Source: Halorubrum ezzemoulense DSM 17463 (GTDB taxonomy: Archaea > Halobacteriota > Halobacteria > Halobacteriales > Haloferacaceae). Taken from it: 38,834 bases of DNA. The notes beneath the pieces were generated by a model that saw only the letters and a list, made by a program, of their open reading frames with translations, made no database searches and had not been told where the DNA came from. A program made the translations under genes and the position numbers. The stretch is taken from NCBI RefSeq assembly GCF_002114285.1, contig NZ_NEDJ01000029.1, positions 1-38,834 on the forward strand, in the 5' to 3' direction. This document shows positions 20,158 to 32,636 of the stretch, in pieces; positions within the stretch are counted from its first letter, which is position 1; each line of letters starts with the position of its first letter.

Positions 20158-20979
20158 CTACCCGCCCAGGAAGTCCTGTCGCACGCCCTCGTCCGCGAGC
20201 AGTACGTCGCCGCGGTCGGTGTAGCGGTTCTCGCCGTTCACCAGCACGTACCCGCGGTCGCAGCGGCGCAGCGCCTCTTTCGCGTTCTGCTCGACCATCA
20301 GCACCGCCGTCCCCCCATCGTTGATCCTGTCGATCCGGTCGAACATGTCGGAGACGAGGTCCGGGGCGAGGCCGGCCGAGGGCTCGTCGAGCAGCAGGAG
20401 GTCGGGGTCGAGCATGAGCGCTCGCCCCATCGCGACCATCTGCCGTTGCCCGCCGGAGAGGGTTCCGGCCTTCTGCTCGCTGCGCTCCCTGAGGATCGGG
20501 AAGCGGTCGTAGATCGTCTCGATCTGGTCTTCAGGCACCTCGTCGAGGATGTACGCGCCCATTTCGAGGTTCTCGCGGACGCTGAGTCCGGGAAAGACGT
20601 TGTCGTTCTGCGGGACGAAGCCGACCCCCTCGCGGATGATCTGTTCGGGCGCCAGCCCGTGGATCGGCTCCCCCTCGAACTCGACGGTCCCGCCCATGTG
20701 GGTCGTGAGCCCGAAGACGGTCTTCATCACCGTCGACTTCCCGGCGCCGTTCGGCCCGACGACGGTCACGTACTCCCCGTCGGCCACGTCAAGGACCACG
20801 TCGGAGAGGATCTGGAGGTCGCCGTACCCGGCGTCGAGGTCGCGCAGGCGAAGGATCGCGTCGCCGTCGATCGCGTGGTCGGTGCCGGCGGTGGCAGTCG
20901 CGTCCGAATCACCGGCTTCGCTCGCTTCCGTCTCGGCGGCTGTCGTCTCCGCGTCGTCCGCCGCTGCGTCGGCCGTCAT
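20158..20979 (-). CDS. livF: branched-chain amino acid/amide ABC transporter ATP-binding protein LivF
   Basis: This is one of the two ATPases of a HAAT-type importer. The 273-residue protein has an unusual 40-residue acidic, Ala-rich N-terminal tail before the nucleotide-binding domain. Motifs are Walker A GPNGAGKS (about 76-83), the Q-loop FVPQND, signature LSGGQRQ (about 168) and Walker B LLLLDEPSAG. The LivF hallmark GVGFVPQNDNVFPGLSVREN is present. It is last in the livHMGF operon and overlaps livG by 4 nt. A start closer to the domain is possible, but the coupled ATG at 20979 is supported by the overlap. Confidence 0.92.
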   Translation of the reverse strand: MTADAAADDAETTAAETEASEAGDSDATATAGTDHAIDGDAILRLRDLDAGYGDLQILSDVVLDVADGEYVTVVGPNGAGKSTVMKTVFGLTTHMGGTVEFEGEPIHGLAPEQIIREGVGFVPQNDNVFPGLSVRENLEMGAYILDEVPEDQIETIYDRFPILRERSEQKAGTLSGGQRQMVAMGRALMLDPDLLLLDEPSAGLAPDLVSDMFDRIDRINDGGTAVLMVEQNAKEALRRCDRGYVLVNGENRYTDRGDVLLADEGVRQDFLGG

Positions 20980-21929
20980 AGCTCCTCACCCAGGTACGCC
21001 TCGATGACCCGCTCGTCGTTCCGTATCTCGTCGCCGGTCCCCTCGGCGAGCACGCTGCCCTGATGCATGACGATGACGCGTTCGCAGTTCTCCATGATGA
21101 TGTCCATGTCGTGCTCGACGAGTAGGAAGGTGTAGCCGTCCGCGCGCAGGTCGTGGATCCGGTCGAGGAGCTTCTCCTCTAAGGTCGGGTTGACCCCGGC
21201 GAGCGGCTCGTCGAGCAGCACCATCTCGGGGTCGGTCATCAGCGCCCGGGCCATCTCCAGCAGCTTCCGCTGTCCGCCGGAGAGGTTCCCCGCGTGTTCG
21301 TGCGCGAGGTGATCGATCTCGAAGAACTCCAGCGTCTCCCACGCCCGCTCGCGGAGCGCGGTCTCCTCCTCGACGACGGCGCCGCGGAGCCCGGGCGTCA
21401 CCGCGCGGATCGCGGACTCGCCGAGCTGCCCCTGCGGCGCGAGCATGAGGTTCTCCAAGACGGTCATCTCGGAGAGCTCGCGGGCGATCTGGAACGTCCG
21501 GACCAGCCCCTCCCGCGCGATCTGGTGCGGTTTGAGGCCGGTGATCTCCTCGCCCTCGAAGTACACCGACCCGCCGGTCGGCTCGTGGACGCCGGTGATA
21601 CAGTTGAATGTCGTTGACTTGCCTGCGCCGTTCGGCCCGATGAGCCCGGTCAGCGAGCCGGACTCGACCTCGAAGGAGGCGCCGTCGACGGCGGTGACGC
21701 CGCCGAAGCGCTTGACCAACCCCTCCACGCGGAGCGGGGGTGCCTCCGAGGGAGACCCCGACGGGACGTGTTTCGCCGCCTCCTCCACCTCGCTGTCGTT
21801 CGCCTCGGGCTCGCCGATCGTTCCGTCCGCCGTCGCGGTGACGGGGTCGGTGGCGGCGACGTCTCCCGGGTTGGGCGCGTCCGCGTCGGTCTCGGCGGAG
21901 TCGCTCGGGTCGGGGGCGTCGCTACTCAT
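20976..21929 (-). CDS. livG: branched-chain amino acid/amide ABC transporter ATP-binding protein LivG
   Basis: This is the second ATPase of the importer, 317 residues. A 70-residue acidic, Pro/Ala/Asp-rich tail precedes the domain (PPLRVEGLVKRFGGVTAVDG). Walker A GPNGAGKST, signature LSGGQRK and Walker B MVLLDEPLAG are intact. The LivG-specific VRTFQIARELSEMTVLEN and the C-terminal VIEAYLGEEL are present. I start at the ATG at 21929; a GTG 9 bases earlier is also in frame. It overlaps livM by 8 nt and livF by 4 nt, so all are coupled. Confidence 0.92.
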   Translation of the reverse strand: MSSDAPDPSDSAETDADAPNPGDVAATDPVTATADGTIGEPEANDSEVEEAAKHVPSGSPSEAPPLRVEGLVKRFGGVTAVDGASFEVESGSLTGLIGPNGAGKSTTFNCITGVHEPTGGSVYFEGEEITGLKPHQIAREGLVRTFQIARELSEMTVLENLMLAPQGQLGESAIRAVTPGLRGAVVEEETALRERAWETLEFFEIDHLAHEHAGNLSGGQRKLLEMARALMTDPEMVLLDEPLAGVNPTLEEKLLDRIHDLRADGYTFLLVEHDMDIIMENCERVIVMHQGSVLAEGTGDEIRNDERVIEAYLGEEL

Positions 21930-23271
21930 CGCTCTCACCTCCGGCGGGCCGCTCGGAGAGGTCGACGGCCGCGGCCGTCTCGATCCGGTCGCCGAGGATC
22001 CCCTCGGGCCGTCGGTGGATGATGAACACCAGCACGAGCCCGAGGAAGACGAACTGGAGCGGCGCGACGTTCTCGGTCGCGTACGCGAGGAACGTCACCG
22101 GGTCCAGCGAGGCGACCGCGTCGGCGAACGACGGCGGCGTCTGCGCGTCGATGAGTCCCCGGACCGTCCCGCCGACGCGGCGGGGCCCCTCGAACAGTAC
22201 CGCCGCGAAGACGATCCCGCCGAGGACGGAGCCGGTGTTCGACCCCGACCCGCCGATTATCACCGCGATGAACACGTAGAAGGTGAGGAGCGGCCGGAAC
22301 TGCGGCGTCGGCGAGACGTTGCCCTGGCTGCCGAACCAGAGGATGCCAGCGAGCCCCATCAGCGCGCAGCCGATGACGAACACCTTGATCTTCACGAGGT
22401 TCACGTCCTTGCCGAGCGAGTCGGCGACGAGCTCGTCCTCCCGGATCGCCTTCATCGTCCGGCCGAACGGCGAGCGGCCGAGGCGTTCGAGCAGGAGGTA
22501 GAAGCCGACGAGGAAGGCGGCGAGGACGGCGATGTACCCCCACCCGATGAGGATCGGCTGCGAGATGCCGAGGCCATCGCTCCCGAAGACGCCGAAGACG
22601 AGGTCGCCGAACGCGGTCGGCGTCCCCGCCTGCCCGTCGACGAGGAACAGGTCGCGGACCGGGTTGTCCGGCATCCCCATCCCGCGACCCCCGCCCGTTC
22701 CGGCGCCGATCGTGTCGCGCAGGAAGTTGTCGAAGGCGCTCGACTGGAGCGACAGGCGGACGATTTCCGAGAGGCCGAGCGTCACGATGGCGAGGTAGTC
22801 GGCCTTGAGTCGCAGCGCCGGCAGGGCGGCGACCCCGCCGAGCAGCGCCGCCATGCCCATTCCGGCGACGATGCCGACCGGGAGCGGCAGTCCGAGCCCG
22901 GGCGGCCCGAAGGCGGGGTCCGGCGAACGGACGACCATTCCCATCGTGTACACGCCGACGGCCATGAACCCGGCGACGCCGATGTTGAAGAGGCCGGTGT
23001 ACCCCCACTGGAGGTTCAACGCGAGCGCGGTGAGCGCGTAGACGAGCCCGAGGAACGTCAGCGTCTCTAGGAGTCCGACGACGCTGTTGAGCCCGTCGGT
23101 GAACGTCAGCAGCGTCGCCGCGGCGTAGATCGCGAGCAGCGTCCCGACCACGAGCCCGAGGTCGCTCTCGCGGGCGGCCTCGACCAGCGCCGCCGTCGCG
23201 CTCTCGGGCGCCTCCGACCCGCCCGCGGACGGCCCGGAGGCGGAGCCGCCGGGTGCGTCGGCGTCGCTCAT
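21922..23271 (-). CDS. livM: branched-chain amino acid/amide ABC transporter permease LivM
   Basis: This is a membrane channel subunit of the importer, 449 residues. A Ser/Gly/Ala-rich tail (1-35) precedes about nine helices. Typical LivM features are LQWGYTGLFNIGVAGFMAVG near residue 90, the coupling region LGRSPFGRTMKAIREDELVADSLG (about 285) that meets the ATPases, and VIIGGSGSNTGSVLGGIVF late in the protein. The ATG overlaps the livH stop by 4 nt (ATGA). The internal extracellular loop (about 190-235) is longer than in bacterial LivM. Confidence 0.92.
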   Translation of the reverse strand: MSDADAPGGSASGPSAGGSEAPESATAALVEAARESDLGLVVGTLLAIYAAATLLTFTDGLNSVVGLLETLTFLGLVYALTALALNLQWGYTGLFNIGVAGFMAVGVYTMGMVVRSPDPAFGPPGLGLPLPVGIVAGMGMAALLGGVAALPALRLKADYLAIVTLGLSEIVRLSLQSSAFDNFLRDTIGAGTGGGRGMGMPDNPVRDLFLVDGQAGTPTAFGDLVFGVFGSDGLGISQPILIGWGYIAVLAAFLVGFYLLLERLGRSPFGRTMKAIREDELVADSLGKDVNLVKIKVFVIGCALMGLAGILWFGSQGNVSPTPQFRPLLTFYVFIAVIIGGSGSNTGSVLGGIVFAAVLFEGPRRVGGTVRGLIDAQTPPSFADAVASLDPVTFLAYATENVAPLQFVFLGLVLVFIIHRRPEGILGDRIETAAAVDLSERPAGGESDE

Positions 23272-24389
23272 GCGGTCGTCACCCCGCCGAACAGTCCCTC
23301 TGGGCGCAACAACAGCATCAGGATCATCACGGCGAACGCGGCGGCCTGGTTGAAGTCGGAGGGGATCCAGATCGTCGAGGTGGTGAACACGACGCCGATG
23401 ACGAGGCCGCCGACGATGGCGCCGTACACCGAGCCGATCCCCCCGAGGATCACGGCCGCGAAGATGAGGAGCAGGAGGAGCCAGCCGAAGTCGAACTGGA
23501 TCGTCCCGCGGAGCAGCACGTAGAGGTAGCCGGACGCCCCCGCGAGCCCGCCGCCGATGATCCACGTGGCGGTGACGACGCGCTCGGCCGGGATGCCGGT
23601 GATGAGCGCGAGGTCCTTGTTGTCGGCCATCGCCCGCATCGCGGTGCCGAGCTTCGTGTGCTGGAGCATGCCGTGCATCGCGAGCATCAGTCCGACCGCG
23701 GCCACGAGGATGGTGAGCTCGTGCGCGTTCACCGAGAGCCCGAGCGGGTCGAACGCGAGGTTCGACGCGTCGACGCTGGCGGTCACGCCGCGCCGGTCGG
23801 AGCCGTACCCGAACTGGAGCAGGTAACGGACGATGAGCGCCGCGCCGATAGAGGCGATGAGCAGGGAGATCCCGTCGCGATCCCGCATCGGCTTGTAGAA
23901 CGCGCGGTCGAGCGCCACCGCGAGCAGCGCCGTGACGACGAACGCCGCGACCAGTCCGACGAGGATCGCGCCCGGCGTCGTGAGGATGTGCGCGCCGATG
24001 GCGCCCGGCGAGGCGTTCCCGGCGTCGCGGACCGTCAGGAGCGCGCGGACCGGGATGTCGCCGAGGCCGGCGATCAGGAACGCGACGCCCCACCCGGAGA
24101 ACGCGCCGACGCTGACGAGGTCACCGTGCGAGAAGTTCGCGAACGAGAGGATGCTGTACGTCATCGAGAGGCCGATCCCCGCGAGCCCGATCACGAGGCC
24201 GATCACGACCCCGTTCCAGAGGTTCGAGCCGAGCCGGTCGACGGAGAGCGACCCTCCTATCGGGCCGAGGCCGACACCCGCGAGCTTCGCCGCGAGATCG
24301 ACGAGGAGCAGGCCCGCAAGGAGGACGACGAAGAGAAGCCCCGGCCGAGCCCGCGCCGCGTCGACGATCGACGAGTCAGTTGTTCCCAT
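23268..24389 (-). CDS. livH: branched-chain amino acid/amide ABC transporter permease LivH
   Basis: This is the second channel subunit, 373 residues with about eight helices. The LivH signature is SMTYSILSFANFSHGDLVSVGAF (about 75-97, written here as adjacent parts SMTYSILSFANFSHG and DLVSVGAF). The ATPase-coupling loop is LGTAMRAMADNKDLALITGI, and the late IFAAVILGGIGSVYGAIVGG segment is typical. It is first in the operon. A TATA-like GTTATTTACC on this strand at 24428-24437 would give a leader of about 15-20 nt. No binding-protein gene is adjacent; the candidate is the permuted protein at 29097-30470. Confidence 0.92.
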   Translation of the reverse strand: MGTTDSSIVDAARARPGLLFVVLLAGLLLVDLAAKLAGVGLGPIGGSLSVDRLGSNLWNGVVIGLVIGLAGIGLSMTYSILSFANFSHGDLVSVGAFSGWGVAFLIAGLGDIPVRALLTVRDAGNASPGAIGAHILTTPGAILVGLVAAFVVTALLAVALDRAFYKPMRDRDGISLLIASIGAALIVRYLLQFGYGSDRRGVTASVDASNLAFDPLGLSVNAHELTILVAAVGLMLAMHGMLQHTKLGTAMRAMADNKDLALITGIPAERVVTATWIIGGGLAGASGYLYVLLRGTIQFDFGWLLLLLIFAAVILGGIGSVYGAIVGGLVIGVVFTTSTIWIPSDFNQAAAFAVMILMLLLRPEGLFGGVTTA

Positions 24390-24510
24390 GTGTACGTCTC
24401 ACTGACACAGGGTGGGTCACCGAGCGGTAAATAACTCGCTGTTCGGACAAACATCGATACCTCGAAAGCGCCTGACAGCTGTCACCCCCCACCGCGTCCC
24501 GAACGCGGCC

Positions 24511-25449
24511 TCAGTCGCCGCCCGCGGCCCGCGCCCGACGCCGCGCCGCCTCCGGCGAGCGCCCCTCGCGCAACAGCGCCTCGACGAACAGCTCGCCGGC
24601 CTTGTACGACGACCGGACCATCGCGCCCGACGCGCAGTAGAGGAAGTCGAACTCCTCCTCGGCGACCCGCCGCCACGTCTCGAAGATGTCGGGGTGGACG
24701 TACTCGAACACGTCGAGGTGCGAGCGCGAGGGCTGGAGGTACTGGCCGAAGGTGACCACGTCGACGCCGACCTCGCGGAGGTCGCCGAGCGTCCGGTACA
24801 CCTCGTGGTCGTACTCGCCGACGCCGAGCATGAGGCTCGTCTTGGTATGGATGTCGGACCTCTTGTCGACCCGATCGAGGACGGCGAGCGACTGCTCGTA
24901 GTTCGCGCGGCGGTCCCGGACCGGCCACTGGAGGCGCTCGACCGTCTCGACGTTGTGGGCGATCACGTCCGGCCCGGCGTCGATGATGCGATCGATCGCT
25001 TCCGGGTCGCCCTGGAAGTCCGGGATGAGCGTCTCGACGAGGATCTCGGGGTCGCGGCGCTTGATCGCCCGGATCGTCTCGGCGAAGTGCGCCGACCCGC
25101 CGTCGGCGAGGTCGTCGCGGTCGACGGACGTGAGGACGACGTAGTCTAACCCGATCTCCGCGACCGCGTCCGCGACGTTGGCGGGCTCGTCCGGGTCGAG
25201 CGGCTCCATCCCGCCCGTCTCGACGTCGCAGAAGTTACAGCCGCGCGAGCAGCGGTCGCCCATCAGCATGAACGTCGCCGTGCCCGGGCCGTCGTTCCCC
25301 GACCAGCACTCGCCCATGTTCGGGCAGTTCGCCTCCTCGCAGACCGTGTGGAGGTCGTGCTCGCGGAGGGTGGACTTGATCTCCGTGAACCGACTCCCGG
25401 ACGGCGGGCGCGACTTCAGCCAGTCCGGCTTCCGGCGGCCGCGTGACAT
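24511..25449 (-). CDS. lipA: lipoyl synthase
   Basis: This radical SAM enzyme inserts two sulfurs into octanoyl groups on lipoyl domains. The 312-residue protein shows the auxiliary cluster Cys set CEEANCPNMGEC (about 37-48), the radical SAM CxxxCxxC as CSRGCNFC (about 68-75) and the C-terminal MVRSSYKAGE, whose Ser ligates the auxiliary cluster in known LipA structures. Length is normal. The start ATG at 25449 is followed directly by the family's basic N-terminal segment. No lipB or lplA lies beside it. The last 20 residues are Arg/Ala-rich. Confidence 0.95.
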   Translation of the reverse strand: MSRGRRKPDWLKSRPPSGSRFTEIKSTLREHDLHTVCEEANCPNMGECWSGNDGPGTATFMLMGDRCSRGCNFCDVETGGMEPLDPDEPANVADAVAEIGLDYVVLTSVDRDDLADGGSAHFAETIRAIKRRDPEILVETLIPDFQGDPEAIDRIIDAGPDVIAHNVETVERLQWPVRDRRANYEQSLAVLDRVDKRSDIHTKTSLMLGVGEYDHEVYRTLGDLREVGVDVVTFGQYLQPSRSHLDVFEYVHPDIFETWRRVAEEEFDFLYCASGAMVRSSYKAGELFVEALLREGRSPEAARRRARAAGGD

Positions 25450-25545
25450 GGATGATCCTTAGCGTCCGAGCGCAAAAGGATGCGGGTCGCCGAGGCGGCC
25501 CGGGGTCTCGCCGACCGCGGGTTCACGCCTCGGGACCGCCCCGGC

Positions 25546-26553
25546 TCATGCCTCCGGGACAAACACGTTCATCGACGGCGTCTGGATCCCTTGGAACTTG
25601 TTCTTCCAGTTGTACGCGATGTTCAGCACGCGCCGCCGGTCGCCCGGCGGTCCCGTCACCACGCTCACGGAGGTCCCGTCTTCCGGGATCTCGACGCGGG
25701 TATCCCGCCAGTCGAACCCGGCGAGCAGTTCCGAGGGGTTCTCGACCGACACCGTCCCGCTGTTCCTGTTCACCTCGTAGAGGCGGTAGGCGTCGGCTTC
25801 GAGCAGCCGCTTGATCTCTTCAAGATCGTCGTCGAAGTGTGCTTCGAGCGCGTCGGCGGTGTGGTAGCCGCAGACGATCAGGTGCGCGAACGTCTCGACG
25901 TTGCGCGGGTTCTGCTCTGCCTCGCGGAGGTGGTCGAAGTACGCGAGCTTCTCCTCGCGGTCGAGGTCGAGGATCGCGTTGACGATCCGGGCCGCCTCGC
26001 GCTCTCCCTCCGTCGCGTCCGAGTCCGTGAGGACCTCGTCCGCCCGCGACCCCGTGTTCTGCCCCCGCGAGACGTCGAGGACGTTCTTGAGGTGTTTCGC
26101 GCGGTCGTACACCGCCGACTTGTACGACCAGTCGCAGTCGCGGACGTCGTCCGGGTAGCCGTCGAACTCGCGAAGGAGCGCCTCGCGGTCCTCGGGGAAC
26201 CCGATCTCCTCGCGGAAGTCGCTCCACGCCGTCGCGTCCTCGAAGAGCCCGAACTGCGTCAGCGTGTCCTGCCCGAGGTTCGCCCGCGTGCCGCCGCTCG
26301 CGACGAACTTGGCCTCGACGAACGTCTCCCCGTCGGGCGACTCGACGATCAGATCGCCCAGCGAGTCGTAGGAGTTGCCGGCGTGGCGAACCGCGGTCAG
26401 GTCGGGGAAGTCGCTCCGGAGCCGGTCGGCGAGCGCCTCGCCGAGATCGGGTCGCCCCCGCTCTTCGAGGTCGGCGTCCGGCTCCGCGCCGTTCGCGAGC
26501 TGCGCCGTCAGCTTCTCCGTGGCCTCGACCCAGCCGCGCTCGTGTTTGCCCAT
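25546..26553 (-). CDS. PD-(D/E)XK nuclease-like protein, uncharacterised
   Basis: I do not recognise a named family. Residues 35-85 show the layout of a PD-(D/E)XK nuclease core: a helix with PDLGEALADRLR (Glu39), then VRHAGNSYDSLGDLIV with Asp67, then GETFVEAKF giving Glu80 and Lys82, the D-Xn-E-x-K triad of restriction and repair nucleases. The next 250 residues are a charged, mostly helical region with FAHLIVCGYHTADALEAHF, then a C-terminal beta-rich part (VSVVTGPPGDRRRVLNIAYNW). No methyltransferase or specificity subunit is nearby, so a repair or defence role is open. The ATG at 26553 is preferred because the codons before it do not look coding. Length 335. Confidence 0.6.
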   Translation of the reverse strand: MGKHERGWVEATEKLTAQLANGAEPDADLEERGRPDLGEALADRLRSDFPDLTAVRHAGNSYDSLGDLIVESPDGETFVEAKFVASGGTRANLGQDTLTQFGLFEDATAWSDFREEIGFPEDREALLREFDGYPDDVRDCDWSYKSAVYDRAKHLKNVLDVSRGQNTGSRADEVLTDSDATEGEREAARIVNAILDLDREEKLAYFDHLREAEQNPRNVETFAHLIVCGYHTADALEAHFDDDLEEIKRLLEADAYRLYEVNRNSGTVSVENPSELLAGFDWRDTRVEIPEDGTSVSVVTGPPGDRRRVLNIAYNWKNKFQGIQTPSMNVFVPEA

Positions 26554-26701
26554 GTGGCGTGTCGGTCGGCGACGGGAGATAAAGGAACCGCGTACTGGCG
26601 GCGAGCTCCCGACCGCCGTCGGTCGTCGGATAAACCGTGCCGCGAACGAGGTGCGTTTAATTCGGTCGCGTCCGAACGGCCGGCCAACGGCGTGTGTAAA
26701 A

Positions 26702-27118
26702 ATGGATGAGGTCGCCCCCGGGCTCCTCGTGGGGACGATGTCGGACGCCGAAGACGAGTCGCTGCTCCGGCGCCGCGGCGTCGACGCCGTCGTGTCGCTG
26801 ACGTACGACGACCCGGACACCGGCGCCGTCGCTCGCGTCGACGCGCCGATGACGGACGGGCCGCGAAACGAGTACGAGGCGTTCGCCACCGCCGCGGAGA
26901 CGGTCGTGGAGCGGCGCGAGGCCGGACAGCGCGTCCTGGTTCACTGCTCGGCCGGCGCCTCCCGCAGCCCGGCGGTCGCCGCGGCGGCGATGGCGCGACT
27001 GACGGACCGGGGCCTCGACGAGGCGTTCGAGCAGGTGCTCGCGCGGCGATCCGAAGTCGACCCGCACGACGCGCTGGTCCGGCGGGCGGCGACGTTCGTA
27101 ACCGGAGGTAGCGAATGA
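26702..27118 (+). CDS. dual-specificity protein phosphatase
   Basis: This 138-residue cysteine-based phosphatase would dephosphorylate Ser/Thr/Tyr-phosphorylated proteins or small substrates. The P-loop HCSAGASRSP gives catalytic Cys82 and Arg88; the candidate general acid is Asp52 in APMTDGP. The N-terminal DEVAPGLLVGTMSDAEDES resembles the substrate-recognition start of DUSP domains. The short length means only the catalytic domain is present. A TATA-like GTTTAATT at 26655-26662 gives a short leader. It is divergent from the nuclease-like gene and convergent with tRNA-Thr. Confidence 0.88.
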   Translation: MDEVAPGLLVGTMSDAEDESLLRRRGVDAVVSLTYDDPDTGAVARVDAPMTDGPRNEYEAFATAAETVVERREAGQRVLVHCSAGASRSPAVAAAAMARLTDRGLDEAFEQVLARRSEVDPHDALVRRAATFVTGGSE

Positions 27119-27137
27119 GCGGCGAGGTCGCAGGAAG

Positions 27138-27209
27138 AGCCTAGGCCGAGATTTGAACTCGGGGTCTCGTCCTTACCAAGGACGCGCTTTACCGCTAAGC
27201 TACCCAGGC
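27138..27209 (-). tRNA. tRNA-Thr (GGT)
   Basis: Read on the minus strand, the 5' arm GCCTGGG (27203-27209) pairs with CCTAGGC (27139-27145) with one G-U pair and is followed by a U discriminator (27138), as in archaeal tRNA-Thr. The anticodon loop is CTTGGTAAG, anticodon GGT. The T arm is CCGAG-TTCAAAT-CTCGG. No intron or encoded CCA is seen. A TATA-like CCATAAAGTC (about 27236-27245 on this strand) precedes it by about 31 nt. Confidence 0.95.
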
Positions 27210-27307
27210 ACGCACTCAGTTGTTGACCGGATTCGACTTTATGGGTTTCGATCCGCGGGCGCGACGTCCGGGAATCGGGACCGGTTCCGGCGTCGTCCCC
27301 GATCCGG

Positions 27308-27970
27308 TCACCGATCGGTCGCGCTGACGGCGCGATCCGAGATATCGGCGATACGGTCGGCGGTCGTCTCAGGTAGCGCCCGGCCCGCGGGCGGGAACTC
27401 GCCGTCGCAGTCGGCCGCGAGGTCGCGGGCGTACGCGAGGAGTTCCTCGGGCGGGTCGCCGCCGACCGCCGTGGTCCCGGCGACGACGGCGAGTTCCAGC
27501 GCGTCGACCTCCAGGTTGCGGTCGAGCCCGACCGCCGTCTCGGCGTCCGTCCCCTCGCGGTCGCGGAGCGTCTGGTCGCGGCCGAACGCGCGCACCACGT
27601 CGACCGCGGGGCGGGCGGCGTCGGTACACGCCAGGAGCGAGAAGCCGCGGGAGACGAGCACGTCGGCAGCGAGGATGTCCATGTCCGCGTCGATGTCGGC
27701 GGCGGTCGGCGCGGTCACCCACGGCTCCTCGCGGGCCACCGTACGGGTGAGCCGCAACCCCTCGTAGATGAGCTGTACGCCGGCGGCGCGATCGGTCACG
27801 TCGCCGAGCTCGACGTCGGGGTCGAGCGCGCGAGCGGTGACCAGCGCCAGCACGCCGGGGGTCACCGCCGCCTCGCCGATTCGCGCGTCGAGGGCCTCGC
27901 GGAGCTGTTCGGGCTCGACGTCCGCGAGCGCCTCGCGCGCGGCGTCACGCGCTCGCGCGGCATCGTCCAT
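27308..27970 (-). CDS. conserved haloarchaeal protein (DUF7114-like)
   Basis: This 220-residue, all-helical, acidic soluble protein matches a haloarchaeal family I recall as DUF7114. Conserved stretches are TPGVLALVTARALDPDV, AAGVQLIYEGLRLTRT, then IDADMDILAADVLVSRGFSL with acidic residues, AFGRDQTLR, and LEVDALELAVVAGTTAVG. The acid-rich DADMDILAADVL pattern recalls polyprenyl synthetase-like helical folds, but the DDxxD motifs are not convincing, so no reaction is proposed. It is divergent from the enoyl-CoA hydratase family gene with a 59-base gap. Confidence 0.65.
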   Translation of the reverse strand: MDDAARARDAAREALADVEPEQLREALDARIGEAAVTPGVLALVTARALDPDVELGDVTDRAAGVQLIYEGLRLTRTVAREEPWVTAPTAADIDADMDILAADVLVSRGFSLLACTDAARPAVDVVRAFGRDQTLRDREGTDAETAVGLDRNLEVDALELAVVAGTTAVGGDPPEELLAYARDLAADCDGEFPPAGRALPETTADRIADISDRAVSATDR

Positions 27971-28029
27971 TGGTAACCGGTAGACGAGCGAAGGGCAAAG
28001 ACCTTTGGAAACGAACGGGATTCCGTCCC

Positions 28030-28737
28030 GTGATCCGAACCCGAACCGACGGCGACGTGCGCGTCGTCACGCTCGACCGCCCCGAGGCGCGCAACGCGCT
28101 GCGCCCCGCCGACCTGACCGCCTTGTGCGAGGCCTTCGAACCGCCCGCGGCCGGCCCCCGGGCGCCGGTGACGTACCTCCGCGGCGCAGGCGACGCCTTC
28201 TGCGCCGGCGCCGACCTCGACGCGGTCGCGGCGCTCGACGACCCGGAGACGTTCGCGCGGCGGGGCCAGCGCGTGGCCGCCGCGATCGAGGACTCGCCGT
28301 CGGCCGTCGTCTGCGGGGTCGACGGTCCCGCCCGCGGCGGCGGCGTCGAACTGGCGCTGGCGGCGGACGTGCGCGTCGCGACGCCGCGGGCGACGTTCGC
28401 CGAGCCGGGGGTCTCCCTCGGTCTGTTCGGCGCGTGGGGCGGAACGGTGCGACTGCCGCGGGTGATGGGCGAAGGGGAGGCGCTCGACGTCGCGCTCTCG
28501 GGACGGGTACTCGACGCGGAGGCCGCCCTCCGGACCGGGCTCGTCTCGCGCGTCGTCGACGACCCCAGATCTGTGGCCGACGCGATAGCGGCGGGCGAGG
28601 CCGACGCGCTGGCGGCGATCAAGCGCCGGCTCCGCGACCGTCGGGACGACGGGGCGCAGGAGCGCGCGGAGGCCGCGGCGTTCGCCGACCTTCACGACGC
28701 CCACGCCGACGAGATCGCGCGACAGCGCGAGCGGTGA
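28030..28737 (+). CDS. enoyl-CoA hydratase/isomerase family protein
   Basis: This 235-residue crotonase-fold enzyme acts on acyl-CoA thioesters. Features are VVTLDRPEARNALR near the start, the oxyanion-hole segments GAGDAFCAGADL (about 58-69) and PARGGGVELALAADVRVA (about 102-119), and FAEPGVSLGLFGAWGGTVRL (about 126-145). One expected catalytic Glu is present in GVELALAAD-type context, while the second (usually in PExxxGL) corresponds to the Glu of AEPGVSLGL. It is shorter than typical (about 255). A GTG at 28030 is preferred over an ATG 60 bases upstream that lies in the divergent promoter. The exact reaction is not determinable. Confidence 0.85.
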   Translation: MIRTRTDGDVRVVTLDRPEARNALRPADLTALCEAFEPPAAGPRAPVTYLRGAGDAFCAGADLDAVAALDDPETFARRGQRVAAAIEDSPSAVVCGVDGPARGGGVELALAADVRVATPRATFAEPGVSLGLFGAWGGTVRLPRVMGEGEALDVALSGRVLDAEAALRTGLVSRVVDDPRSVADAIAAGEADALAAIKRRLRDRRDDGAQERAEAAAFADLHDAHADEIARQRER

Positions 28738-28835
28738 GGTGGCCGCCGCGGCGTCACCGCACCGTCCACGTCGCCCGGCAGTCTCGATCTCAAAGACTTA
28801 AGTGAGTCTCCAAACAAAAGACGAGTGCGAAGCAC

Positions 28836-28906
28836 GCACCGGTAGTGTAGTGGTATCACGCAACCTTGCCATGGTTGCAACCCGAGTTCAAATCTCGGCC
28901 GGTGCA
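28836..28906 (+). tRNA. tRNA-Gly (GCC)
   Basis: The acceptor arm GCACCGG (28836-28842) pairs perfectly with CCGGTGC (28899-28905), followed by discriminator A (28906). The D arm is GTAGTGTAGTGG, the anticodon loop is CTTGCCATG with anticodon GCC, and the T arm is CGAG-TTCAAAT-CTCG. No CCA is encoded and no intron is seen. A TATA-like ACTTAAGT near 28796-28803 lies about 37 nt upstream. Confidence 0.96.
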
Positions 28907-28978
28907 CTTCCTGCGATCGTGCCCCGGCCTGACTCCCGCTCGCTTCACTCGCGGGAGTCCCGGCCGGTGTATTTTCTG
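28896..28978. repeat. partial second copy of the tRNA-Gly 3' end, with a strong hairpin between
   Basis: CGGCCGGTGCACTTCCTG at the tRNA end (28896-28913) recurs as CGGCCGGTGTATTTTCTG at 28961-28978, with 15 of 18 positions identical and three C-to-T changes. Between them GACTCCCGC (28931-28939) pairs perfectly with GCGGGAGTC (28951-28959), and the flanking CCGGCC/GGCCGG can extend the stem. tRNA 3' ends are favoured attachment sites of archaeal integrases, so this may be the scar of a lost element. The hairpin plus T-rich tail could also act in termination. Confidence 0.5.
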
Positions 28979-29096: not shown

Positions 29097-30470
29097 CTAC
29101 TGGTTCAGCACGCTCGACCACTGGCTGGTGTACGTCGCCTGGTTCGGCTCGAACGAGACGCGCTCGGTAATCGTCCCGTCGCGCTCCTCGAAGGCGTTCA
29201 CGTACGACTCCTCCAGCGACTGGCCGTAGGCGTCGTTGAGGTACAGCGTCCCCGAACTCGCCGCGCCGACCGTGTCGCTGACGGCGAGGTCGGCCATCGC
29301 GGGCCCCTGAAGCAGGTCGGAGGGCGCGGTCCGGAAGATGTAGTCGTTGTCCTCCAGATCGGTCACGTTCGGGTCGGTCGAGGACGGCGAGATGCCGACG
29401 ACGCCGTTCGGGATGAACACCTGGTCCGAGACCTGGAGGTTAACGTTCGACGACGCCGGGCCCACGACGGCGCCGTAGCCCGCGTTGACGATGGCGTTCG
29501 CGCCCGAGATACCGGCCTGCGGGTCCGTCTGCGTGTCCTCAACTCGGGTCTCGACGTCGACGTTGATCCCCGCGTCGTTGACCTGCGTCGCCGCGAGCAG
29601 GGCGCCGTCGCGGATCGGGACGCCGAGCGGACCGAGGTCACCCGTCTCCGGCATCAACACGCCGATTCGCGCGGTGAACGAGTCGACGCCGACCGGGTCC
29701 GCGGCGGTCGCGTTCCGGTCCTCCTCGGAAAGTTCGTTGCCGAACTCGACGGTGTCGAGGGTGACGAGTTCGCCGTCTTGGAAGTCGACGATGTCGTACG
29801 CGGCGGTGGCGATATCGCCGTTGACGTCGAAGTTGACGCCCGAGGACGCGCCCACGTAGTGGACCGGATCGCCGGCGGCGACCGTCTCGACGGCCTCGGG
29901 GAGGTCCGCGGGGCCGAACTCGTCGCCGCCGGGATTAGCGACGGTCCGGACGCGGTCGCGGATCGCCTCGCCGCTGTTCTCGCCCGCGGCGGTCGCCGCG
30001 AGGATCTCGACCGCCATCGCGTCGTACGCCTGCGCCGTGAACACGCCCGGCTCCTCGCCGTACTCCTCCTGATACGACTCGGTGAAGAACTCCGCGCCGG
30101 GACCGCCGGCCGAGGGCGCGGTGCCGATGACGTTGTTCATGTCGTTGTCGACCTCGCCGGGCAGGTCGCTGTCGATCAGCCCGTCGGGGACGATGATGTC
30201 GAGGTCGGGCGCGCTGTCGGCGAAGTCCGAGTAGAAGTCGCGGAACAGCTGGATACCGGACTGCGGGAACCCGACGACCATCACGGCGTCCGGGACGTTG
30301 CTCTGGTCGCCGCCGTCGGACCCGTCGGAGCCGTCGTCCCCGTCCATCCCGTCGCCGCCGTCGCCGCCGTCGGACCCGTCGCCGCTCTCCGTCGAGCAGC
30401 CGGCGAGCCCCGCGATGCCGACCGCGCCGGCGCCCTTGAGTACGTCGCGTCGCTGGATTCTTCGCTTCAT
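29097..30470 (-). CDS. HAAT-type solute-binding lipoprotein with circularly permuted mature domain
   Basis: A binding protein of the branched-chain amino acid/amide (LivJ, type I) class, 457 residues. Residues 1-25 are a Tat-type signal with RRDVLKG and lipobox LAGC (Cys25), then a Gly/Asp/Ser linker to about 56. The family order is linker, IGVLMPETGDLG..., middle, then the VMVVGF... half. Here the linker is followed at once by NVPDAVMVVGF (58-68) and the normal C-terminal half to VTLDTVEF (about 243). Only after a short bridge comes the normal N-terminal half (SFTARIGVLMPETGDLG, 264-280), ending at SQWSSVLNQ (449-457). The ligand-site motif SPSST (361-365) is kept. One open frame and a normal leader argue for a functional permuted protein. 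ATG at 30470 follows a TATA-like ACTTATAATG. It may serve livHMGF. Confidence 0.85.
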   Translation of the reverse strand: MKRRIQRRDVLKGAGAVGIAGLAGCSTESGDGSDGGDGGDGMDGDDGSDGSDGGDQSNVPDAVMVVGFPQSGIQLFRDFYSDFADSAPDLDIIVPDGLIDSDLPGEVDNDMNNVIGTAPSAGGPGAEFFTESYQEEYGEEPGVFTAQAYDAMAVEILAATAAGENSGEAIRDRVRTVANPGGDEFGPADLPEAVETVAAGDPVHYVGASSGVNFDVNGDIATAAYDIVDFQDGELVTLDTVEFGNELSEEDRNATAADPVGVDSFTARIGVLMPETGDLGPLGVPIRDGALLAATQVNDAGINVDVETRVEDTQTDPQAGISGANAIVNAGYGAVVGPASSNVNLQVSDQVFIPNGVVGISPSSTDPNVTDLEDNDYIFRTAPSDLLQGPAMADLAVSDTVGAASSGTLYLNDAYGQSLEESYVNAFEERDGTITERVSFEPNQATYTSQWSSVLNQ

Positions 30471-30745: not shown

Positions 30746-32404
30746 TCAGTACCCCTGCGCGTTCCCGTCCTTCCGGGGTTCGGTGGCGGCCGAGAGGACC
30801 CCGTCGCGGTTGCGAGCGATCTGCGCGCCGCCGAACATGACCGGCGAGAGCGTCCGCACGTCGTGATCCTTCCGGACCAGTTTGGCTGCGGCGTCGTCGT
30901 CGAAGTGAGGTTCGAGCGCGAGTTCGCCGCCCTCGCGGTAGCGCCACCGCGGCTCGTCGAGCGCGCGCTGGAGGGGCATATCGTAGTCGACCAGATTCGA
31001 GATCACCTGGACGTGGCCCTGCGGCTGCATGTACCCGCCCATCACGCCGAACGCCGCCCAGTCGTCCTCGTCGAACCGGACCACGCCAGGGATGAGGGTG
31101 TGGAAGGGGCGCTTGCCTGGTTCGCGGCTGTTCGGGTGGTCCGGGTCGAGCGAGAACGAGGCCCCGCGGTTCTGGAGGGCGATGCCGGTGTCGCCCGCGA
31201 CGAGCCCGGAGCCGAAGCCGGCGAACCGCGAGTTGATGTAGGAGACGACGTTCCCGGCGTCGTCGGCGACCGTGAGCAGCACGGTGTCGGCGTCCTCCGC
31301 GTTCGCGTTCGGCACCCCGAAGGAGACGTCGTGCGAGGCGGTCTCGCCGACGCGGGCGGCGCGCTCGGCGGCCCAGTCGGCCGACACGAGCGGGGGGATC
31401 TCCTCGTACTCCGGGTCGGTGATGTAACGGTGGCCGTCGTGGAAGGCTCGCTTCAATGCCTCGGCGAAGTAGTGGACGCGCTCGGGGGAGTCGTAGTCGT
31501 GCTCGCCCGCGCCCAGTTCGGCGGCGACGTTGAGCGCCTCCAGCGCGATGAGCCCCTGATTGTTCGGCGGTAGCTCGTACACCTCGGCGCCGTTGTACGT
31601 CGTCGACACCGGCTCCGGCCACTCGACCTCGAACTCGGCGAGGTCGTCGACGGTCATGAACCCGCCCTGCGACTGGACCTCGTCGGCGATCGCCTCGGCG
31701 ATCTCGCCCTCGTAGACGGCGTCCGCGCCCTCCTCTGCGATCGTCTCCATCGACTCGCCGAGCCGCGGGAGCGTCACCGTCTGGCCGACGGCCGGCGGCT
31801 CGCCGTCGAACAGGAACGCCTCGCGGGCATGGTCGTCGGTGAACAGCGCGTCGGCGCTCGCCCCGTAGGAGGCGATCACCTCGGACACCGGGTACCCCTC
31901 GGTCGCGTACCGGATCGCCGGTGCGAGCGCGTCGGCGAGCGTGAGCCGACCCAGCTTCTCGACGGTCGCCTCCCAGCCGCGGGCCGTCCCCGGGACGGTG
32001 ACCGCGTGCGGCCCGTAGAACGGCATCTCGGCCTCGCCGGCGTCGTCGACCGCGTAGCCGCCGTCGTCCGGGTAGTAGGAGTCGGCGTCGTCGCCCTCGG
32101 CGAGCGCCGCCCGCACACTTTCGATCGTCGCGTCGGCGGGCGCGCCGCCGCAGGAGCGCATCGCGCCGACCTCGCCGTCGGCGGTCCGGTACAGCGCGAA
32201 CACGTCGCCGCCGAGCCCGGTCGAGGTCGGCTCGACGACGTTGAGCGCGGCGGCGGTCGCGACCGCCGCGTCGAACGCGTTGCCCCCCTCGCGTAACACC
32301 TCGATCCCCGCCTGGCTCGCGAGCGGCTGGCTTGTCGCCACCACGCCGCGCTCGCCGTACACGGTCGACCGCCGCGAGGTGAATCGGTCTAAGTCCGGAT
32401 CCAT
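30746..32404 (-). CDS. ggt: gamma-glutamyltransferase family protein
   Basis: This Ntn-hydrolase transfers or hydrolyses gamma-glutamyl groups; it is made as a precursor that self-cleaves at a Thr. The 552-residue sequence shows VVATSQPLASQAGIEVL, GGNAFDAAVATAAALNVVEP and TGLGGDVFALY at the start, PPNNQGLIALEAL in the middle, and DADTVLLTVAD with Thr374 as the likely nucleophile, then FGSGLVAGDTGIALQNRG and GKRPFHTLIPG. There is no signal peptide, so unlike many bacterial GGTs it appears cytoplasmic. The ATG at 32404 is supported by a TATA-like GTTTATGT (32428-32435) about 27 nt upstream. It is divergent from the dpp operon. Confidence 0.9.
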   Translation of the reverse strand: MDPDLDRFTSRRSTVYGERGVVATSQPLASQAGIEVLREGGNAFDAAVATAAALNVVEPTSTGLGGDVFALYRTADGEVGAMRSCGGAPADATIESVRAALAEGDDADSYYPDDGGYAVDDAGEAEMPFYGPHAVTVPGTARGWEATVEKLGRLTLADALAPAIRYATEGYPVSEVIASYGASADALFTDDHAREAFLFDGEPPAVGQTVTLPRLGESMETIAEEGADAVYEGEIAEAIADEVQSQGGFMTVDDLAEFEVEWPEPVSTTYNGAEVYELPPNNQGLIALEALNVAAELGAGEHDYDSPERVHYFAEALKRAFHDGHRYITDPEYEEIPPLVSADWAAERAARVGETASHDVSFGVPNANAEDADTVLLTVADDAGNVVSYINSRFAGFGSGLVAGDTGIALQNRGASFSLDPDHPNSREPGKRPFHTLIPGVVRFDEDDWAAFGVMGGYMQPQGHVQVISNLVDYDMPLQRALDEPRWRYREGGELALEPHFDDDAAAKLVRKDHDVRTLSPVMFGGAQIARNRDGVLSAATEPRKDGNAQGY

Positions 32405-32636
32405 ACTCTCGATCCGGTCGCCCGGCACATAAACATCGATCCGGATCTATCCGGTCTGTTCGCTCCCGACCGAACGATCTGCCACCGGAAGGCGGGGCTC
32501 GGTCGCGCTTCGCCAGACAATAGTGAACGATCATGTCAATACGTCCAATTGTCACCGAATCGGTCAATTACTGTACGGATGACGACCTGATGTACTGAAT
32601 AGAATAGTTTTTAACGGCCGACGTGTACGTGTTGGT
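32405..32636. promoter_or_regulatory. divergent promoter region between ggt and dppA
   Basis: This 232-base gap carries a TATA element for each direction: GTTTATGT on the minus strand (32428-32435) for ggt and TTTTTAA (32608-32613) for dppA, each about 26-28 nt from its start codon. Directly before the dppA start is the palindrome ACGTGTACGT (32621-32630), placed where a bound repressor would block the start. The A/T-rich middle holds three GTCAAT/GTCACC-like repeats (32535-32575). No gene is seen. Confidence 0.6.

Follow-up and report, generated by a model that had tools for sequence, protein, structure and literature searches.

Does the minus-strand open reading frame (ORF) at 29097-30470 of contig NZ_NEDJ01000029.1 from Halorubrum ezzemoulense DSM 17463 encode a LivJ-type solute-binding lipoprotein whose two halves have changed places, and if so, how often has such an exchange occurred? 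Below, "the window" is the whole stretch of 38,834 nucleotides in which this gene lies. The original prediction, made from the letters of the window alone, had proposed a natural circular permutation. On the reading we favor, to which we assign a probability of about 85%, the gene product serves a LivFGMH-type amino-acid importer as its membrane-tethered binding protein, would keep the type I fold and comes from a family permuted repeatedly at one and the same loop.

The ORF is intact on the minus strand over the 457 codons originally described, and its 457-residue product begins with the predicted twin-arginine leader and a lipobox (IAGLAGC); the Pfam match of this leader to PF10518 (TAT_signal, E=6e-4) is short of its curated cut-off. 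The best Pfam match of the protein is PF13458 (Peripla_BP_6; 109 bits, cut-off 31.7), and its best solved relatives are branched-chain amino-acid-binding proteins. When aligned separately, each half matches its own part of this domain: positions 2-186 are covered by residues 264-457 and positions 191-312 by residues 58-243. The two halves therefore complement each other but stand in exchanged order, with the chain cut at position 186-191 of 343. BLAST against a canonical-order homologue from the same genus (genome G041) returns two off-diagonal blocks and no single diagonal: canonical residues 71-256 align with query residues 266-455 at 63% identity and canonical residues 260-446 with query residues 60-245 at 58% identity, while the signal peptides of both proteins align in place. 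The canonical-order relatives that hold the corresponding locus in other species are 55-66% identical to the permuted protein, per half. Against a profile of length 375 built from 45 canonical haloarchaeal proteins, the native order gives two out-of-order matches of 263 and 273 bits; after rotation it gives a single full-length match of 550 bits over profile positions 3-375 of 375, such that the whole circle is present and no part is lost. The best rotations, 190-206, coincide with the linker joining the old termini, which had been put at about 20 residues and which, with a small correction, comprises residues 244-263 (20 aa); across the family this linker measures 16-22 aa and its sequence varies between groups. 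Canonical proteins have 86 columns with a conservation of at least 90%, and in 75 of these the permuted proteins carry the same residue. The block order first read from the window, 58-243 before 264-457, is thus borne out by PF13458, by the comparison with G041 and by the rotated-profile score. Taken together, these alignments support the view that the LivJ-type protein encoded by the ORF is truly circularly permuted, and the permutation is old and conserved. Because its halves are swapped, we file the protein as a permuted derivative, by descent, of the HAAT/PF13458 family and not as an ordinary member.

For counts in the family and the order, a carrier was any genome with one collinear match to the whole query at E<1e-90, a threshold that separates the two forms because no canonical-order relative has a single match better than ~2e-73. 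Within the genus, 48 of 52 genomes carry the permuted gene (up to 96% identity, including one-contig genomes); so do 110 of 170 family genomes and about 160 of the 392 sampled Halobacteriales genomes, spread over nine families; carriers by name include many Halorubrum species, Halohasta salina and Halobellus salinus. Matches listed at E<1e-50 in a phylum-wide sample are confined to Halobacteriales. No relative was found on viral contigs, and plasmid relatives appear in the match listing as two pieces, the pattern expected of canonical order. Both halves are under purifying selection in the window's group, with median ratios of nonsynonymous to synonymous substitution (dN/dS) of about 0.2: 0.21 for the C-half, 0.22 for the N-half and 0.23 for the joining linker. 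At one locus (L080 in G016), about 1.4 kb of other DNA, possibly an insertion element, splits the permuted gene near codons 346-354.

To count the permutations we extracted 159 homologues, 112 permuted and 47 scored canonical (one of the latter, L166/L227 of G413, is re-permuted), and built protein trees with both halves joined in canonical order. Permuted proteins fall into four groups: a (L102, L103), b (L092, L094, L101), c, which holds Halorubrum, Halohasta and others including the window gene, and d, which is large and extends across families. Group c is nested inside a canonical clade with support 99/100, the tree needs 4 changes, and a single permuted clade occurs in 0% of bootstrap trees. 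Approximately unbiased (AU) tests on this tree reject the union of all permuted proteins (p 0.0004), c+d (p 0.001), a+b+c (p 0.0004) and a+b+d (p 0.011), but neither a+b nor b+d. Trees of each half alone also need 4 changes, which speaks against chimaeras. Moreover, a tree of LivFGMH, an independent data set, recovers the same permuted groups, and AU tests on it reject all permuted (p 0.0004), c+d (p 6e-7) and a+b+d (p 1e-5). Over the AU tests as a whole, the unrejected groupings gave p 0.09 and 0.15 for a+b and p 0.12 for b+d. In all four groups the cut lies at the same helix-strand loop. The rejections on both trees therefore imply at least three independent permutations, all at this loop; a fourth origin is likely, but because a+b and b+d stand unrejected the tests bear out only three.

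One lineage, comprising three genomes, is by its alignments permuted again at another loop. Residues 237-481 of the G413 protein (L227 5896-7341) correspond to P0001 60-304 and residues 86-234 to P0001 304-456, so that the query residues from 304 to the end come first, the C-half and the joining linker of group d follow, and the 41 residues with which the N-half begins close the chain; relatives at 98% and 90% identity occur in G784 and G788. The new cut falls between the first helix and the second strand of the N-half, the joining linker is kept, and the protein groups with d in the trees. With this form besides the canonical and the permuted ones, the same circle is found opened at three different places. 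In the genus of G413, permuted and re-permuted forms occur alongside others that look canonical, the last judged from match pattern only.

Judged from its sequence, the permuted protein would retain the type I (Venus flytrap) fold, but both of its chain ends would lie within a second-lobe loop, between a helix and a strand, and not where LivJ begins and ends; its old ends are bridged by about 20 residues. Canonical LivJ/LivK HAAT proteins (PDB 3td9, 4n0q, 1usg) share with it the family, the conserved motifs, the LivFGMH partners and matches to both halves, whereas the permuted protein has swapped halves, a joining linker of ~20 residues and, presumably, its tether on the other lobe. Ligand would be captured in the manner of LivJ, and the lipid tether would sit on lobe II rather than on lobe I, an assignment of lobes that we take from general LIVBP knowledge. 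We infer that the permuted form could arise by tandem duplication and in-frame fusion, after which the first copy would lose its N-half, keeping signal and linker, and the second copy its C-half; the joining linker would then be made up of what had been the C-terminal tail and the N-terminal linker. Tandem permuted gene pairs do occur, for example in G250 and G335. That the same loop was used each time may be due to what the structure tolerates, to selection in favor of a tether on lobe II, or to both.

The features of the gene and of its surroundings are collected in Table 1.

Table 1. Features of the permuted gene, its transporter partner and its upstream neighbour in the window.
Feature	Position	Strand	Basis or remark
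Permuted HAAT/LivJ-type solute-binding lipoprotein gene, 457 codons	29097..30470	-	Intact ORF, PF13458, canonical-order profile
Tat-type leader and lipobox (residues 1-25, ...GLAGC)	30396..30470	-	Sequence; PF10518 TAT_signal; aligned with canonical leader
Acidic Gly/Asp/Ser linker, residues 26-57	30300..30395	-	Sequence; similar linker in relatives
Former C-terminal half, now first, residues 58-243	29742..30299	-	PF13458 191-312; canonical profile 195-375
Joining linker, old C-terminus to old N-terminus, residues 244-263	29682..29741	-	Alignment of relatives; canonical profile
Former N-terminal half, now last, residues 264-457	29100..29681	-	PF13458 2-186; canonical profile 3-192
livF-like ATP-binding cassette (ABC) ATPase of cognate transporter	20158..20979	-	PF00005; adjoins solute-binding protein (SBP) gene in most relatives
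livG-like ABC ATPase (BCA_ABC_TP_C)	20976..21938	-	PF00005 and PF12399
livM-like permease	21925..23271	-	PF02653 match at 22198-23067
livH-like permease	23268..24389	-	PF02653
Gamma-glutamyltranspeptidase (GGT), conserved upstream neighbour, marks locus orthology	30746..32428	-	PF01019

For permuted and canonical genes alike, the usual arrangement is tail to tail, livFGMH being on the other strand. In the window, livFGMH (20158-24389) is on the same strand as the permuted gene and ~4.7 kb away, with other genes between, a consequence of an inversion, relative to G024, of the segment that runs from livF to tRNA-Gly. This inverted segment (20158-28907) carries livFGMH, a lipoyl-synthase-like radical SAM gene, X447, tRNA-Thr, DUF7114, an enoyl-CoA hydratase gene and tRNA-Gly, and its outer neighbours, PHO4 and SBP-GGT, are unchanged. 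At the matching locus, where G024 has the permuted gene, G041 of the same genus has a canonical one in the order GGT-SBP-livFGMH-lipA. In some genomes of the genus (L075-L079), the SBP-livFGMH cassette near lipA/GGT is of the distant group-d type and in the other orientation, which suggests that the whole cassette was replaced there. In family f17 (L123, L124, L153/L174), two diverged permuted SBP genes stand in tandem beside one livFGMH operon, and one copy is without an evident lipobox.

The window's genome is a draft of 155 contigs, and the apparent swap might accordingly be sought in a mis-assembly or a collapsed tandem duplicate. We reject this explanation, which the original prediction had named as a possible refutation, as wholly improbable: collinear full-length permuted orthologues occur in independent complete or near-complete genomes, some within one contig (e.g., G021, G042, G045), and permuted orthologues at 50-96% identity extend across nine families. 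A tethered sensor, or some other binding lipoprotein that is no longer a transporter subunit and so free to be re-wired, would agree with the distance between livFGMH and the gene in the window, and with the fact that some permuted genes have no LivFGMH inside the stretch read. We regard it as quite unlikely, because most permuted genes directly adjoin livFGMH, the separation in the window is traced to a local inversion, and the binding-protein and transporter trees agree on the placement of the permuted groups.

Somewhat less improbable, though still doubtful, is a history in which permutation happened once, long ago, and the scattered distribution came about later, when several genes reverted to the canonical order or were converted by canonical paralogues. 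The common cut loop of all four groups fits such a history, and on the protein tree one gain and four losses cost 5 steps, compared with 4 for four gains, so parsimony alone is weak. However, no canonical protein carries extra residues at the cut loop, whereas the one clear re-permutation kept its joining linker as a scar, and gene conversion would need both halves replaced, while each half and the separate LivFGMH genes agree. The narrow difference in steps is one of several points that weigh against repeated permutation with a conserved fold. AlphaFold2 models reached a pLDDT (predicted local distance difference test) of only 52 (25 sequences) and 35 (12 sequences) with shallow alignments, low confidence that arises because the alignments were limited to close relatives; a Foldseek search with the pLDDT-52 model, itself of low confidence, gave LivJ-type proteins as top PDB matches, covering about half of the chain at a template modelling (TM) score of ~0.3. 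Among the ORFs collected there is no fused tandem-duplicate intermediate, which the duplication model would lead one to expect but does not require. Most junction linkers have diverged so far that no origin in a canonical leader can be recognized, and the only suggestive linker-leader pair (L046 vs L160, shuffle p 0.03) is one of 16 tried.

The original prediction knew of no permuted member of this family. For the HAAT branch that statement stands: the open literature searched yielded no account of a permuted binding protein from the HAAT branch or from haloarchaea, subscription papers and preprints being outside the search. It does not hold for type I binding proteins as a whole, since TpMglB-2 (Tp0684) is a solved, naturally permuted type I glucose-binding lipoprotein ("Type Ic / Cluster Bc") with relatives in spirochaetes and Gram-positive bacteria (PMC4990184). 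The two cases share a natural circular permutation, in a type I solute-binding lipoprotein of an ABC importer, and a family of relatives. As argued for TpMglB-2, the permuted haloarchaeal chain probably needs a fourth crossover between the lobes (PMC4990184), one more than the three that the original prediction gave for type I binding proteins. By contrast, the two differ in family and class of ligand: TpMglB-2 belongs to the MglB sugar branch, and the haloarchaeal protein, whose best Pfam match is Peripla_BP_6, falls outside the MglB-type sugar-binding sequence family. TpMglB-2 is cut in lobe I, with the first three N-lobe strands moved to the C-terminus, and the haloarchaeal protein near mid-chain, in lobe II. 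The permuted portion of TpMglB-2 aligns at 13%, compared with 55-66% identity of the haloarchaeal halves to canonical relatives. TpMglB-2 retains ligand binding and closure (PMC4990184). Repeated origin and a canonical orthologue at the same locus belong to the haloarchaeal case only, neither being described for TpMglB-2 in PMC4990184, where tethering is suggested, still as a hypothesis, as the reason for the permutation. In another type I protein, the Thermotoga ribose-binding protein, PMC9815098 deals with engineered permuted halves, laboratory constructs rather than a natural and whole protein. A permutation that recurs at one site, in a family whose canonical orthologues share the locus, thus appears to be undescribed.

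As a rule, a natural circular permutation is met with as one old event that separates distant relatives. This haloarchaeal binding-protein family is, with good probability, a permutation hot spot, with at least three and probably four independent permutations at one loop plus one re-permutation. For annotation, the permuted protein is a case that domain tools report as two out-of-order partial matches; for biosensor design, permuted binding proteins are built by hand. Because the same locus with the same transporter shows a repeated switch at one loop, the cause of permutation becomes testable, whether it be tether geometry, folding at high salt, Tat export or a DNA mechanism. If the hot spot is true, it would point to positive selection for a lipid tether on lobe II of the Venus flytrap instead of lobe I or, alternatively, to a DNA mechanism that acts time and again on the repetitive sequence of the linkers, and the separate swaps, at least three, would constitute a natural experiment on how a protein can be re-wired without breakage.
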